Positions 30,495 through 36,251 of a DNA stretch of 64,000 nt are shown in pieces. Below the pieces are notes generated by a model. That model had not been told where the DNA came from. It ran no database searches and worked only from the letters and a program-made list of their open reading frames with translations. The DNA is from Mesorhizobium sp. AR10 (GTDB lineage Bacteria; Pseudomonadota; Alphaproteobacteria; Rhizobiales; Rhizobiaceae), in the NCBI RefSeq assembly GCF_024746795.1, contig NZ_CP080524.1, forward strand, positions 3,388,001-3,452,000, read 5' to 3'. The position numbers and the translations under genes are program-made. Numbering within the stretch: position 1 is the first letter of the stretch; each line of letters opens with the position of its first letter.

Positions 30495-31129
30495 AGGCCC
30501 GGCCTCGCCAATGCGTTGAGTGCCGCGGCGGTCATGGCGCTGCCACCCAACCGGCCGCGCACGATCGCATAGGGCACGCCATAGGAATTCTCGGCCAGCG
30601 CATCCTTCGACTCGGCTGCACCGACGAAGCCCACCGGCATGCCGATGATCGCCGCCGGCTTCGGCGCGCCGTCGCGCAGTTTCTCCAGGAGATAGAAAAG
30701 TGCGGTTGGCGCGTTGCCGATGGCGACCACCGAACCGGCCATGCGCTCACCCCACAGGTCGATGGCCGCGGCAGAGCGGGTGTTGCCGATCTCTTTGGCG
30801 ATCTCGGCGGTGCGCGAGTCGCGCAGCGTGCAGATCACCTCGTTGCCGGCCGGCAGACGGGCGCGGGTGACGCCGTGCGAGACCATTTCCGCGTCACAGA
30901 AGATCGGCGCACCGGCCGAGAGTGCTGCGCGCGCGGCCGCGACGAAATCGCTTGAAAAGACAAAATGCCTGGCAGATTCGACCTGACCGCAGGCATGGAT
31001 CATGCGGATGGCGACATCGGCCTCGGCTTCGGAGAAGCGCGCGAGATCAGCCTCGTCGCGGATGATGGCGAAGGAGCGCTCGTAGATCGCCGTGCCGTCA
31101 TGGATGTAGTCGTACGCGGCCATGCTCAT
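30491..31129 (-). CDS. cobH: Precorrin-8X methylmutase
   Basis: Moves the methyl group from C11 to C12 of precorrin-8X, giving hydrogenobyrinic acid. The 212 residues are normal for CobH. The catalytic histidine lies in AIRMIHACGQVESA (about residue 45), and further conserved blocks are FCDAEMVSHGVTRARL, AIGNAPTALFYLLE and GMPVGFVGAAESK. It overlaps cobG upstream and cobI downstream by four bases each. Confidence 0.97.
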   Translation of the reverse strand: MSMAAYDYIHDGTAIYERSFAIIRDEADLARFSEAEADVAIRMIHACGQVESARHFVFSSDFVAAARAALSAGAPIFCDAEMVSHGVTRARLPAGNEVICTLRDSRTAEIAKEIGNTRSAAAIDLWGERMAGSVVAIGNAPTALFYLLEKLRDGAPKPAAIIGMPVGFVGAAESKDALAENSYGVPYAIVRGRLGGSAMTAAALNALARPGL

Positions 31130-32595
31130 TCCTGTCGGTAAGCCTCGGCTATGCCGACCGCGCCAAGCCTTGCCAGGCAGGCAGCGGTGGTTTCGCCGGG
31201 ATGTCGTCTTGCGCGGATCGCTGCTGCGATGCGGCTGATGCCGCGCGCGGCGTCATAGCCCGGCCTGTATCCGGCAGGAAGAGCTTTCGCCGTCGCGTTC
31301 ACGACAAGTCCGGCTCCGTTTTCGCCGCCGACCAAGGTCAGGGGCGCCGGGCCGGGATGCGCGCAGCCCTTGGCGCAGCCGGAAATGTGCAGTGTGAAGG
31401 AGGAATCGAAGATGTCGCGATTGTCTGTCGCGATGGTTTCGGCGATGTCGCGTGTGGCGATCCGGCCGGAAGCGCAGGCCGGCGTGCCGGGGCAAGCAGC
31501 GATGCGCGTGCGCAGGTCGGCGGCGTTAGTGACGAAGCCAAGGGTGGCGGCAGCGTGCTGAAGGGATTGGCTGGCGGCTGGCGCCAGGGCAAGGAAGAGC
31601 AGGGCGCGGCCCGGCGCCAGCCGGATTTCGGTCGCGCCGAGGGCGAGGGCACGTTGAGTGAGGTCAATAATCTTGCCCGCCGGCATGCTGCCGAAGGGCA
31701 GGCCGATGCCGAGGGCGGCAGCGTCGCCAGTCAAGGGGAAGAGACCGATGGGTTGGCGATCCTTCGCGCCCCCCTCTGTCCTGCCGGACATCTCCCCCAC
31801 GGGTGGGGAGATTGGCAGTTCCGGCGCCGGCGCTCCCTTGGCAGCGTCGGGGATTGGCGAAGGCAGCGGTGAGAGTTCGATCTCCCCCCTAGTGGGGGAG
31901 ATGTCCGGCAGGACAGAGGGGGGCGCGAAGGAATGCCAGCCCGCGAGTGATCTCAGCTGCCGCTCTGTCAGATCCCTCGCATGGGCTTCGCGACCTTTTT
32001 CGGCAACCATTCTAAGCACTGCAACGGCGGTGTCGCGCGCTGCATTTTCATCGGCCGTTGCAACTGGCTTCGCGCTTTGGCTGTCACCGGCAACAGATAC
32101 AGTCCACAGGATGCTCGCGTCGGCCCGCACCGCATTCAATCTGACATCGGCCGTCACCGCGTCCATGGTCAGCTGCCCGCCGCCATCGATAACAACCGAA
32201 ACCTTCGGCCCGAGGCGCTGCGTCAGCCCGGCTTCGTCTATCGCTGCGCGAATGTGTTCCGCCAGTGGGCGCGGGTCAGCGATCTCTTCCGGATCGATGC
32301 CGGCCAGCCGGCCGGTCTCGACCGGCACGCCGGTGCGCACCGCGATACCAAGCGCATCGACCTCCGCTGCCAGCAGCCGCGCGCTCGCCGCCGTCAGGCC
32401 GCGGATCTGCAGGTTGCCGCGCGCGGTCACTTCCATGATGCCGTTGCCGTGCCGCAAGGCGGATTCGCAGAGTCCGATCAACGACTTTGGCGAAAGTCCT
32501 CCAGCGACAGGGTTGAGCCGCACCAGCAGGCCGTCGCCGGTCTGCATCGGCGCGGATAGAGCAGGGCAAGCGCCTCGGCGGGAGAAGGCGTTCAT
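31126..32595 (-). CDS. cobG: Precorrin-3B synthase (monooxygenase) with palindrome insertion
   Basis: Fe-S enzyme that hydroxylates precorrin-3A at C20 and forms the gamma-lactone of precorrin-3B using O2, a hallmark of the aerobic pathway. It resembles sulfite/nitrite reductases. The N-terminal half has MEVTARGNLQIRGLT, and the C-terminal half has the cluster cysteines in CPGTPACASGR and SGCAKGCAHPGPAPLTLVGG. Its 489 residues include an in-frame palindromic insertion of about 57 codons at about residues 221-278, between the two halves. Without it, it would be close to usual size. It overlaps cobN and cobH by four bases. Confidence 0.93.
   Translation of the reverse strand: MNAFSRRGACPALSAPMQTGDGLLVRLNPVAGGLSPKSLIGLCESALRHGNGIMEVTARGNLQIRGLTAASARLLAAEVDALGIAVRTGVPVETGRLAGIDPEEIADPRPLAEHIRAAIDEAGLTQRLGPKVSVVIDGGGQLTMDAVTADVRLNAVRADASILWTVSVAGDSQSAKPVATADENAARDTAVAVLRMVAEKGREAHARDLTERQLRSLAGWHSFAPPSVLPDISPTRGEIELSPLPSPIPDAAKGAPAPELPISPPVGEMSGRTEGGAKDRQPIGLFPLTGDAAALGIGLPFGSMPAGKIIDLTQRALALGATEIRLAPGRALLFLALAPAASQSLQHAAATLGFVTNAADLRTRIAACPGTPACASGRIATRDIAETIATDNRDIFDSSFTLHISGCAKGCAHPGPAPLTLVGGENGAGLVVNATAKALPAGYRPGYDAARGISRIAAAIRARRHPGETTAACLARLGAVGIAEAYRQE
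31760..31932. repeat. Palindromic element inside cobG (39-bp perfect arms)
   Basis: Positions 31760-31798 and 31894-31932 are exact reverse complements over 39 bp, separated by 95 bp which also contain a small inner hairpin next to each arm. The arms share the block CTGTCCTGCCGGACATCTCC with one element in cobN. On the cobG strand the arms encode PPSVLPDISP and GEMSGRTEGGA, and the frame is kept. Confidence 0.95.
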
Positions 32596-35500
32596 GCCGC
32601 CACCCCATGGGCTTCGACGATCAGGGCGGCGAGATCGTCGTCGATCGAATTGCGCAAGGGGTGCCAGAGGCCGCGCCGCCGCGCCGATTGGAACCGTTCG
32701 GCAATAACCTTTGCCGCTGCCGGGTTCTCGCGCAGGATGAAGGCGCGAACCTCGGGATCGCCGACATAGGCATCATGCACGGCCTCGATCAGCACGCCTG
32801 ATATGGCGTTGGTGGTTTCGGCAAAACCGACGAGACGGTCGACCGTCTCGGCGAATTCCGAGGCGCCGCGCGGGCCGTGGCGCATCTGGCCGGCGATGAA
32901 GCGGGGATTGATCGCACGGGCGCGCACCACCCGGGACACCGCCTCGCCAACCGAGCGCGGCTTCGGCTTTTGCGGATCGGTGGTGTCGAGCACGATGACG
33001 TCTGCGTTCTTGCCAAGTGCCGCGACCGCTGCCGAAAACCCGCCGATGAAGGCAACATCGGCGGAGCCTTCGAGAATGTCGCGGCCGGGGTCGTCGCCGG
33101 TATGAACGAGAAGGTCAGCTTCGGCGATGCGGCCTTCAAAGGCGCCGGGCGCTGAGATGCCTTCGCCCTCGGCGCCGCCATAGGCATGTGACGTCGCGTC
33201 GAGATAGGCGCGACCGATCTCTTCGCGCGCGGCCCAGTTGCCGCTCGACAACAATTCCTCGACGCCGACGCCATAGGTGCCGGGCGAGGTGCCGAAAATG
33301 CGTGGGCTGATCTTTCCCTCCGCGCGGGTCCTGGCCGCGAGCGGGTTTTCCGAATCGTCCTCGTCGCGGGTGGCGACGGCGTTGGCAGCAGCGTCGATCA
33401 GCGCGATCTGGGTCGGGAACATGTCGCGAAACAGACCGGAAATGCGCCAGGTGACATCGACGCGCGGGCGGCCGAGCGCTGCCGGCGGCAGCACTTCGAT
33501 GCCGGTGATGCGGCCAGTGGCGCCATCCCACTGCGGCCGGCAGCCCATCAGAGCCAGGCCTTGCGCGATCTCCTCGCCACCGGTGCGTAGCGAGGCCGAG
33601 CCCCAGAGGTCGATGACCAGCGAGCGCGGCCAGTCACCATGCGATTGCATGTAGTTGCGCACCACTTCTTCCGCAGCCACCTTGCCCAGATCATAGGCGG
33701 TCGGCGTCGGCATGGTGCGCGGGTCTGATGTGAACAGGTTGCGGCCGGTGGGCAGGACATCGCGTCGGCCGCGCGCCGGCGCGCCGGCAGGCCCGGCAGC
33801 GACATGGCGGCCGTCCAGGGCTGCGAAGAGTGCTGCCTTCTCGGTCGCCGCACTTTGCTGGCGCAGCGGATCGACCTCGCCCTCGGGCGAGCGGCCATAG
33901 ATATGCAGGCCGTCCTTGATGGCGAAGTCCTTGAGGTCGCAGAGCCAGGCGTCGATGCGGCGCAGCGCTTCGTCAGGTGCGTCGGCTGTGGCAACGCCGG
34001 CTTCGGAGGCGAGGCCGGTCTTTTGCGCGGTCTCGACGATCAGCTTCGCCAGCCGGTCGCGGCGGCGGCGGTCGAGCCCGTCGGCCTGCGCGTATTCGTC
34101 GACCAGCCGCTCCAGCTTGTGCTGGTTCTCGTCCAGCCCTGCGCTGGTCAGCGGCGGTGGCAGGTGGCCGAGGGTAACAGCGGCGATGCGCCGCTTGGCC
34201 TGCGCTGCCTCGCCCGGGTTGGAAACGATGAAGGGGTAGATGACCGGCAGCGAACCGGTGACGATCTCGGGAAAGCAGTTTTCCGAGAGCGCCACGGTCT
34301 TGCCGGGCAACCATTCCAGCGTGCCGTGGGCGCCGACATGGATGAGGGCGTGGATGCCCAGCGATTTGCGCAACCAGAGGCCAAAAGCGATCAGCGCATG
34401 GCGCGGGGGGAGCGTAGGGTCGTGATAGTCGGCGCGGCGGTCGGCTGAGCGGCCGCGATCTGGGGCGAGCGCTACGGTGACGTTGCCGAAGGTGGCGGCA
34501 CGGAAGGGGAAGTGTTTTTGGCCAACAGGCTGCGAAGGCTGGCGTTCTGTCGCGCCCCCCTCTGTCCTGCCGGACATCTCCCCCTCAAGGGGGGAGATTG
34601 AGCCGTCATCTGCGCTTTCGCCAATCTCAAACATTGGAGGAAGAGAGCCGGCAACGGAACTGCCAATCTCCCCCCTTGAGGGGGAGATGTCCGGCAGGAC
34701 AGAGGGGGGTGGCTCGCACAAACCCGTCTCGTCTTCCACCTTTCCCCAAGCTGCCTCTACCGCAGCGATTGCCGCTGTCGGTAGCTCCGTCGAAAGGGTG
34801 AGGAACTCATCCAGCCCCAACCCATCGCCGCTGCGCTCCAACACATCCAGCAATTCACGCGGCGTTTGCGGAATCCCCTCAACGGCGTAGCCCTGCTCCT
34901 TCAGGTCGCTCAGCATGGCCAGCACGCTGGACGGCACGTCGAGGCCAACGGCATAGCCGGTGCGGCCGGGAGCGCTCGGATAGTCGGGGATCAGGATCGC
35001 GAGCTTGCGCGTCGCGCGTGGCGCTTGCTGCAGCCGAATGAAGGCTTCGATGCGGTTCGCCACCTGCGCCACGCGGTCTGACTCTGGCCGGTTGGCGAAA
35101 GCGCGGAAGGCCAACGCCGGGTCGGTTTCGCTCTCACCCTTGAAGGAAATGGCGCCGGCCAGAATGCGGCCGTCGAGCTCGGGCAGGACGACATGCATGG
35201 CAAGGTCGGCGGGGGCGAGGCCGCGCTGGTTGTTTTGCCAGATATCGCGGCGGGTCGTGGCCACGATGACCTGGAACACCGGCACGCCGGCGCGATCGAA
35301 CAAGGTCTCGACACCGGGCTCGGCGCCGGACGCGAAAGCGGTCGCGGTGATGATGGCGGCGGGTTTCAGCGCGGCCAATGCGTTTTCCACGAAGGCGAGG
35401 GAGGTCGGGTCTTTCAGGCTGGAAACGAAGATCGGCACGGGGACCATGCCGCGCTGTCGCAGCGCTTCAAAAAGGGCGTCGATCGGCGCGACATCGGCGG

Positions 35501-36251
35501 CGAGCAGCATTGAGCGATAGAAGAGAATGGGAATGATTGGCGCGGCGTCTCCCTCCCCCTTGAGGGGAGGGTGGCCCGCAGGGCCGGGTGGGGTCATTGC
35601 GGACGTGCTCGGCGCCTCTTTGCGTCGGCGCATGTCGGAGGCGACCCCACCCCCAGCCTGCGGCCGGACCCTCCCCTCAAGGGGGAGGGGCACGACGCCG
35701 CGTCCCGGCTCGTAGTAGCCCGCTTTCGGCACACTGACCGGTTCGGCAACAACCGCATTCTGTCCCGCCAACCCTGCGAGACGGGCGACCAGCGCGGTCA
35801 TATTGGCCGGGCCGCCCTCGCGAAAATAGTCGAGCAGGCCGTCCAGTTCGTCGCGCGGCAGCGTCGAGCCTTCGATCAGCCGCAGATCCTCGTCGTGGCT
35901 TTCGCCGGGCAGCAATGCCAGTTTGATGCCGCGCGCACGGGCGGTCGCGGCGAGCTGGTCGCAGCCATAGCGCCACCAGTCGTAGCCGCCGAGGATGCGG
36001 ACGAGAATGACCTTGGCGTGTTGGGCGACGCTGTCGATCCAGAGGTCGACGGACATCGGATGGCGCAGATCGCGAAGTGCTGCCAGCCGCATGGAGGGCA
36101 GGCGCGCCGCATCGGCTTTCCACGCCGCAGCCAGTCCGGCCAGATCGCTGTCGGTGAAGGACAGCGCCACGATATCCGCCGGCGTCTGCCTGAGATCGAC
36201 AGGCTCGGCGAGATCGTCGAGCGAGGCGGATGTGGTGGTGAGGATGTGCAT
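32592..36251 (-). CDS. cobN: Cobaltochelatase subunit CobN with two palindrome insertions
   Basis: Large subunit of the ATP-dependent aerobic cobaltochelatase, which inserts Co2+ into hydrogenobyrinic acid a,c-diamide together with two AAA+ partners (not in this window). The 1219 residues show the CobN/BchH-type family blocks, for example LIHVGAHGTLEWLPGKTVAL, PVIYPFIVSNPGEAAQAKRR, RISGLFRDMFPTQIALIDAA and RAINPRFIAGQMRHGPRGAS. Two in-frame palindromic elements add loops at about residues 187-233 and 514-565. Apart from these it is slightly shorter than the P. denitrificans protein (about 1275). It overlaps cobG by four bases and follows cobW after 19 bp. Confidence 0.94.
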   Translation of the reverse strand: MHILTTTSASLDDLAEPVDLRQTPADIVALSFTDSDLAGLAAAWKADAARLPSMRLAALRDLRHPMSVDLWIDSVAQHAKVILVRILGGYDWWRYGCDQLAATARARGIKLALLPGESHDEDLRLIEGSTLPRDELDGLLDYFREGGPANMTALVARLAGLAGQNAVVAEPVSVPKAGYYEPGRGVVPLPLEGRVRPQAGGGVASDMRRRKEAPSTSAMTPPGPAGHPPLKGEGDAAPIIPILFYRSMLLAADVAPIDALFEALRQRGMVPVPIFVSSLKDPTSLAFVENALAALKPAAIITATAFASGAEPGVETLFDRAGVPVFQVIVATTRRDIWQNNQRGLAPADLAMHVVLPELDGRILAGAISFKGESETDPALAFRAFANRPESDRVAQVANRIEAFIRLQQAPRATRKLAILIPDYPSAPGRTGYAVGLDVPSSVLAMLSDLKEQGYAVEGIPQTPRELLDVLERSGDGLGLDEFLTLSTELPTAAIAAVEAAWGKVEDETGLCEPPPSVLPDISPSRGEIGSSVAGSLPPMFEIGESADDGSISPLEGEMSGRTEGGATERQPSQPVGQKHFPFRAATFGNVTVALAPDRGRSADRRADYHDPTLPPRHALIAFGLWLRKSLGIHALIHVGAHGTLEWLPGKTVALSENCFPEIVTGSLPVIYPFIVSNPGEAAQAKRRIAAVTLGHLPPPLTSAGLDENQHKLERLVDEYAQADGLDRRRRDRLAKLIVETAQKTGLASEAGVATADAPDEALRRIDAWLCDLKDFAIKDGLHIYGRSPEGEVDPLRQQSAATEKAALFAALDGRHVAAGPAGAPARGRRDVLPTGRNLFTSDPRTMPTPTAYDLGKVAAEEVVRNYMQSHGDWPRSLVIDLWGSASLRTGGEEIAQGLALMGCRPQWDGATGRITGIEVLPPAALGRPRVDVTWRISGLFRDMFPTQIALIDAAANAVATRDEDDSENPLAARTRAEGKISPRIFGTSPGTYGVGVEELLSSGNWAAREEIGRAYLDATSHAYGGAEGEGISAPGAFEGRIAEADLLVHTGDDPGRDILEGSADVAFIGGFSAAVAALGKNADVIVLDTTDPQKPKPRSVGEAVSRVVRARAINPRFIAGQMRHGPRGASEFAETVDRLVGFAETTNAISGVLIEAVHDAYVGDPEVRAFILRENPAAAKVIAERFQSARRRGLWHPLRNSIDDDLAALIVEAHGVAA
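34555..34709. repeat. Palindromic element inside cobN (46-bp perfect arms)
   Basis: Positions 34555-34600 and 34664-34709 are exact reverse complements over 46 bp, with a 63-bp centre. The outer part of the arms is the same sequence as in the cobG element. On the cobN strand the arms encode PPSVLPDISPSRGEIGSS and ISPLEGEMSGRTEGGA, the same frame as in cobG. Confidence 0.95.
35551..35689. repeat. Second palindromic element inside cobN
   Basis: The outer 22 bp (35551-35572 and 35668-35689) are exact reverse complements. They continue inward as imperfect GC-rich arms (GGCCCGCAGGGCCGGGTGGGG with its partner). This is a different repeat family from the other cobN element. It keeps the frame, encoding PLPLEGRVRPQAGGG and PPGPAGHPPLKGEGD at the two ends. 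Confidence 0.9.

Follow-up and report, generated by a model that had tools for sequence, protein, structure and literature searches.

The cobalamin genes cobG and cobN of Mesorhizobium sp. AR10 each carry, in frame, a copy of one palindromic DNA repeat, here called family I. These copies were analyzed in a 64,000-nucleotide stretch of the genome (the window; NZ_CP080524.1, positions 3,388,001 to 3,452,000), together with orthologous genes and further copies from collections holding one genome per species. Across orthologs the elements lie in frame, differences within them show a nearly flat codon-position pattern, the two arms change jointly, centers occur in inverted form, and some elements are cut down to scars. 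The whole of this is probably explained by a neutral repeat that is translated as a disordered linker and rewritten by template switching.

In-frame copies of one palindrome in cobG and cobN

Two minus-strand reading frames of the window matched equivalog models far above their cutoffs: cobG, encoding precorrin-3B synthase (31126 to 32595, 489 amino acids; TIGR02435, 461 bits versus a cutoff of 235), and cobN, encoding a cobaltochelatase subunit (32592 to 36251, 1219 amino acids; NF008973, 1605 bits versus 1235). A reading made earlier from the sequence alone had placed perfect arms in cobG at 31760 to 31798 and 31894 to 31932; these are exact reverse complements and can be extended to 41 bases (31760 to 31800 and 31892 to 31932). 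Its arms in cobN (34555 to 34600 and 34664 to 34709) are likewise perfect over 46 bases. With outer modules, and with no strand assigned, the elements span 31750 to 31942 in cobG (wider arms 31750 to 31812 and 31880 to 31942, 63 nt, 90%) and 34537 to 34729 in cobN, at a position called site 2. On the minus strand they encode residues 225 to 277 of CobG (31765 to 31923; PPSVLPDISP...GEMSGRTEGGA) and 515 to 567 of CobN (34551 to 34709).

As the sequence-only reading proposed, both genes remain open frames around an in-frame copy of one repeat, and in each the arms give PPSVLPDISP...GEI and GEMSGRTEGG. It had also taken all three arm frames to be open, which is true only in part: each copy has a stop in one frame of the three when read through the whole element, and in cobN a stop of this kind falls within the right arm. 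The window contains four exact copies of an 18-base segment of the arm and five matches when up to 3 mismatches are allowed, versus a mean of 0.11 in shuffled sequence. The unit is about 155 bp long, with two arms of 40 to 60 bp and a center of about 60 bp, and none of the family I copies read holds a gene of its own. RNA folding is far stronger than in 200 shuffles (z of −11.6 for the cobN element and −14.1 for the cobG element), with folded energies of −131 and −148 kcal/mol for the two elements. Three Rfam matches at an E value of at most 1, all to microRNA families below their gathering scores, were taken as chance hairpin likeness.

Mapping the insert onto structures, a check that the sequence-only reading had suggested, placed it in variable parts of both proteins. 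In a CobG model built from 37 sequences, residues 222 to 279 have a predicted local distance difference test score (pLDDT) below 50, while everything else except residues 1 to 9 lies above 50; outside the insert the model is mostly confident (mean pLDDT of 82.7). The cysteines at 368, 374, 407, and 411 are invariant among 37 aligned CobG proteins. Against the solved CobN structure 9uk9, the alignment breaks off at residue 508 and restarts at 565, across the site 2 insert, and has a gap at residues 189 to 235, across an insert at a second position, site 1. The inserts are thus predicted to sit in disordered or variable linkers, which fits survival of tolerated insertions; a preferred target, the other option raised by the earlier reading, was not demonstrated.

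Inverted centers and jointly changing arms

The center of the cobN element in Mesorhizobium muleiense (L082) matches that of M. prunaredense (L090) at 100% as its reverse complement and at 66% forward. Four pairs of cobG centers match at 93 to 94% reversed versus 57 to 66% forward. Where the best identity reaches 80% or more, inverted pairs make up 19 of 42 in cobG and 26 of 52 in cobN. Different copies within the AR10 genome provide the background for such matches: in the better orientation, 406 pairs had a median identity of 70%, a 99th percentile of 81%, and a maximum of 93%. By this background, pairs at 80 to 85% are weak evidence of inversion and pairs at 87 to 100% are strong evidence.

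Orientation of the center shows no phylogenetic signal. It changed 15 times on the tree for cobG (45 rows) and 8 times for cobN (32 rows), and shuffled orientations gave means of 15.2 and 8.8. Both orientations are frequent among the tree rows (24 to 21 in cobG, 22 to 10 in cobN), and orientation was undecided in 2 of 56 cobG and 2 of 38 cobN copies. At flank-matched sites in the AR10 genome and genomes G033 and G003 (27 pairs, at least 6 of them in genes), a hand count from rounded values gave 7 pairs favoring inversion and 8 favoring the same orientation by at least 0.10; three of the 7 lie in genes. About 20 residues differ between orientations in the compared pairs. In-gene copies, a set collected within open gene frames, are open in both directions in 46 of 56 cases for cobG and 36 of 38 for cobN.

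The arms change together. The first variable base is complementary between the arms in 44 of 47 cobG and all 34 cobN copies on the tree, where independent change would give 17.3 and 12.6. Left and right arms changed 19 and 20 times on the tree in cobG and 15 times each in cobN. In L144, both arms of the CobN site 1 element are shortened jointly in their outer runs, the left-arm C run and the right-arm G run each being one shorter, and a third base is lost in the inner left arm.

One study reports that template switching between inverted repeats homogenizes arms and inverts spacers (PMC8604942). Because joint arm change and inverted centers are the signature reported there, we infer template switching, which would be the simplest single cause of arm homogenization and spacer inversion together; we judge recombination between arms only about 60 bases apart to be a less likely cause. 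Family I is a dispersed rhizobial palindromic DNA repeat with few copies placed in genes, and in this model in-gene copies would persist where the insertion hit a tolerant linker and the frame stayed open. The CobG and CobN copies would be translated as disordered linker. Polymerase template switching between the arms would rewrite the element, in one mode copying one arm onto the other, so that the palindrome stays nearly perfect while its sequence drifts, and in another inverting the center, so that the encoded peptide is replaced by the opposite-strand reading. At times the element would collapse to a short palindromic scar. Flips might even be fast enough for both orientations to coexist in a species or culture, giving CobG and CobN in two linker forms by DNA mechanics alone, an extension that we regard as doubtful.

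Codon-position differences and read-through

For copies in the same orientation with middles of 80% identity or more, the first, second, and third codon positions differ 57, 65, and 53 times in the cobG middles (20 pairs) and 38, 26, and 39 times in the cobN middles (11 pairs). The corresponding counts for the arms are 22, 18, and 26 in cobG and 14, 12, and 7 in cobN. In the rest of the genes, the same pairs, where both rows are on the tree, show a third-position excess (1862, 1043, and 6725 in cobG; 866, 521, and 3148 in cobN). Hand-picked pairs agree, with 21, 18, and 22 differences in 8 pairs and 23, 18, and 26 in 7 pairs.

Read-through was counted at loci taken by DNA position whatever the frame, with the gene visible on both sides and the element parsed; of the 80 loci, 25 were set aside for cobG and 44 for cobN because they had no parsed element, no gene visible on both sides, or no gene at all. 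The element is read without stop or frameshift at 54 of 55 cobG and all 36 cobN site 2 loci, and the core distance is 1 modulo 3 in all 90. Among 104 copies not placed in genes, this distance is found in 17, with the frame open in 24 of their 34 readings. Frame changes were also seen in cobN of L103, L115, and L118; in L115 the element contains a run of N, the change lies elsewhere in L103 and L118, and a pseudogene or an assembly error may be responsible.

Most likely, the sequence of the inserted peptide is under no detectable selection, and what is maintained would be an open frame and a length modulo 3. The sequence-only reading had suggested selection on the peptide from the shared frame. 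This is not supported: codon-position differences are about flat, other genes use other frames, L144 uses another frame at CobN site 1, and seven CobG proteins retain scars.

Reading frame of the arms

Reading the 104 copies that were not assigned to genes in both directions gave 208 readings. Sorted by right-arm phase, 207, 169, and 137 of these are open across the right arm, and 134, 129, and 101 are open across the entire element, so that the proposal that stops alone force the frame is only partly true. Within proteins, both arms are read in the CobG frame in CobG, CobN site 2, an ABC ATPase, CobC, RibD, and a phosphonate-binding protein. The same right frame with another left frame occurs at CobN site 1 and in a methyltransferase, a nitrate-reductase-like enzyme, a phosphopantetheinyl transferase, and an acetyltransferase. 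GluQ-RS, PBP1C, and another CobG use another right frame, which rules out that the right arm is always read in one frame. At CobN site 1, one frame pair is used in 13 of 14 family I copies and another in L144.

This sample was collected by hand and is not unbiased; the protein searches behind it supplied the best 120 of 578 and 24 of 24 matches. Copies at protein ends (e.g., in PF03824, PF27030, PF04480, and PF13442 proteins) and a short CobG with another left frame (P0042) were left out of the frame table, and domain positions were given for ten example proteins. One right-arm frame is used at 11 of the 14 internal sites (P = 0.0018 versus openness), and the left-arm frame is shared at 8 of the 14 (P = 0.07). 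The frame bias suspected in the earlier reading is therefore present as a right-arm preference, one that is not exclusive and comes from a small, hand-collected sample.

History of the insertion sites

Of 76 aligned CobG proteins (the window and 75 of 80 fetched loci; L128, L135, L144, L146, and L150 were dropped as truncated or shifted), 59 hold the full element in the same linker and frame, 7 a short in-frame scar, and 10 neither. Classes were assigned by regular expression, with L136, which carries the element, corrected by eye from "none"; possible remnants are present in L137 and L145, which were classed as neither. Among the genera with the element are Mesorhizobium, Aminobacter, Pseudaminobacter, and Oryzicola, and the single Rhizobium row is without it. 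Because the 10 proteins lacking an insert or clear scar, mostly more distant ones, exist, the insert is no ancient part of CobG, as the view of it as a repeat had implied. A number of the scars form short in-frame palindromes, perfect or nearly so, as if a hairpin had been trimmed in step. In cobG of L090, L105, and L109, the right-arm peptide reads GEMPSGGKEGRTEGG, with an extra small in-frame insertion within the arm.

The CobN set comprised 66 proteins (the window and 65 of 80 loci, with open frames of fewer than 1100 codons dropped), classified by regular expression so that some scars are counted as family I. At site 2, 42 proteins have family I, 6 have other repeats, and 18 have no insert or a short linker; the corresponding counts for site 1 are 16, 26, and 24. 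The other repeats indicate that the same linkers have received several unrelated palindromic families. Near-empty CobN sites (L131, L119, and L087) retain parts of the outer modules, and no target-site duplication, such as miniature inverted-repeat transposable elements (MITEs) carry besides their terminal inverted repeats, was identified at them.

In the window itself, site 1 of cobN is occupied by an in-frame palindromic insert of a second family, family II (35541 to 35698, no strand assigned; arms 35542 to 35572 and 35668 to 35698, 31 nt, 90%), which encodes CobN residues 188 to 237. The sequence-only reading overlooked this insert (35542 to 35698). Family II is unrelated to family I and has 26 partly overlapping matches in the AR10 genome. 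In other species, site 1 carries either family I or, as in Aminobacter L132, a third family (SPFTGRRSRQGDEG...PRERGEG) in place of family II.

Copy number and distribution of family I

The AR10 genome contains at least 34 two-armed family I elements with arms 90 to 130 bases apart, counted among the matches listed (100 of 119 arm places). Intergenic position was judged by a rough flank test, and its automatic coding version undercounts in-gene copies (cobG of the window was filed as both_coding_diff_strand); which copies lie in genes was decided by inspecting the translations. This placed at least four of the 34 in genes: cobG, cobN, and two that we take, from reading their frames and not from a model, to encode the ATPase of an ABC transporter and a molybdopterin enzyme resembling nitrate reductase. 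P0038, a likely relative of the ATPase, matches ABC_tran. The arm search of Mesorhizobium genomes that the earlier reading had recommended gave a match in 60 of 61 genus genomes, and 118 of 199 family genomes had a match.

Family I also matched 163 plasmid records, chiefly of Sinorhizobium (66) and Rhizobium (55), with Shinella plasmids among them. None of the 60 listed plasmid places falls under an annotated gene, by a gene table that is incomplete; 9 of the 60 are in unannotated records. The family I search of phages gave no match. Inside-out arm pairs, with outer ends facing and 123 to 130 bases apart, occur in the AR10 genome at L065:3890-4120, L068:6970-7200, and L063:5280-5515, and are perhaps two adjacent elements; a place on Sinorhizobium pSymB (L223) resembles them. 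In other organisms, an in-frame family I element was found in the CobC-like proteins P0023 and P0086, which belong to another cobalamin step. The predicted nickel/cobalt transporters P0012, P0015, and P0136 begin with a translated element ahead of a signal-like segment, probably through wrong start calls.

Alternative explanations

A function of the inserted peptide in cobalamin synthesis, with its frame under selection, would agree with the frame shared by CobG, CobN site 2, CobC, the ABC ATPase, RibD, and the phosphonate-binding protein, with an insert common to the genus and near genera, and with the single right-arm frame at most internal sites. We nevertheless consider it very improbable, as the codon-position pattern is about flat in middle and arms, 7 of 76 CobG proteins have been cut down to scars, a flip changes the middle of the peptide wholesale, and L144 has moved CobN site 1 into another frame by losing a single base at each of three places, two of which are outer arm runs. 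A programmed invertible switch, producing two forms of CobG and CobN, is suggested by the occurrence of both orientations and by the many copies open both ways. A flip was seen outside genes too (L204/L054), however, the flipped frame has a stop in 12 of 94 parsed in-gene copies, and recombinase dependence is not shown (no search for a recombinase was made), so that such a switch appears quite unlikely.

Both orientations could also have come from repeated independent insertion, or from replacement by other genomic copies, with no flip in place. The multicopy nature of the family, the likeness of own-genome copies (up to 93%), and the occupation of CobN site 1 by different repeat families across species speak for this, whereas same-site inverted matches of 93 to 100% exceed the 99th percentile of own-genome copies (donors in other genomes were not searched for); on balance we judge it unlikely. 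That the insert never reaches the protein, being removed or skipped by RNA processing or ribosome bypass, is scarcely credible: the very stable RNA hairpins would suit it, but 90 of 91 copies are stop-free and length-matched to the frame, which skipping does not require.

Several observations nonetheless weigh against a neutral repeat rewritten by template switching. Inverted matches of 80 to 85% are close to the own-genome background, and outside genes a single flank-matched pair exceeds it (L204/L054, 92% inverted versus 71%). No inversion was seen within one species, in collections holding one genome per species. The tree, obtained by a short search, used only the flanking parts of cobG and cobN, and 16 of its 61 inner branches were drawn open. 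L082 and L090, the pair with 100% inverted identity, are 6.9% apart in the gene sequence around the element. This divergence exceeds what would be expected with an unchanged neutral insert, and lineages may therefore have exchanged the sequence by transfer or conversion. Since own-genome copies are up to 93% identical, conversion between loci is possible for single cases as well. The pairs behind the codon-position counts are not independent, and position 2 in cobN is somewhat low. One gene is clearly broken: in L144, a complete genome, the cobG element (distance 114) contains a stop, after which the frame is shifted. The right-arm preference, though it comes from a hand-collected sample, is more than pure neutrality would account for, and translation of the insert in CobG and CobN is something that we infer.

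Comparison with known palindromic repeats

To our knowledge, in-frame palindromes are known mainly from Rickettsia and kin. A literature search, beyond whose reach most subscription papers lay, turned up no report of inserts like these in genes of rhizobia, cobalamin genes included, in line with the earlier reading. A free-living genus here supplies dozens of orthologous in-frame palindromes in well-studied enzymes, and with them a natural record, kept in frame, of flipped spacers and homogenized arms. This allows a numerical test of whether in-frame inserts amount to junk or to new material for proteins, and the answer here would be a neutral spacer. Conserved-looking motifs such as GEMSGRTEGG are, on this evidence, DNA repeats and not protein domains.

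Rickettsia palindromic elements (RPE) are described as repeats of about 100 to 150 nt that lie between genes and, in frame and without disruption, within them (PMC4316617, PMC10969869). Family I is like the RPE of those descriptions in being palindromic and dispersed (about 155 nt, at least 34 two-armed copies) and in lying in frame inside genes (cobG, cobN, and others), with the disrupted cobG of L144 as an exception. It differs in its rhizobial hosts and in the flipping center, joint arm change, and flat codon-position pattern described above. NCBIfam contains RPE models; compared with NCBIfam at an E value of at most 0.001, CobG and CobN matched none of them. The parallel with RPE drawn by the sequence-only reading therefore stands as an analogy between dispersed in-frame palindromic repeats, with no sequence match to an RPE model; family I would work like an RPE without being filed as one.

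Closer to home, Rhizobium-specific intergenic mosaic elements (RIME) are named as intergenic (PMC2573895). Like RIME, family I is rhizobial, palindromic, variable at its copy ends, and mostly outside genes; unlike them it also lies inside genes, a use of RIME that the literature search, within its reach, did not find. Family I may belong with these repeats, to which it is likened by description and not by sequence. REP sequences are palindromic and occur inside reading frames in several species, as 20- to 40-bp units tagged GTAG or CGTC (PMC3733652). Family I shares the palindromic form and the position inside reading frames and, at about 155 bp, differs in size, the property compared here in place of tags.

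In the template-switch study, inverted repeats in yeast genes changed up to 5 neighboring amino acids per event (PMC8604942). Family I is like those repeats in having homogenized arms and an inverted spacer in coding DNA. Unlike them, it is a dispersed bacterial repeat with arms of 40 to 60 bp and about 20 residues differing between orientations. What appears to be new here, judging from sequence comparison, is that a center of about 60 bp flips and that the signature of template switching falls on a repeat that is apparently translated.

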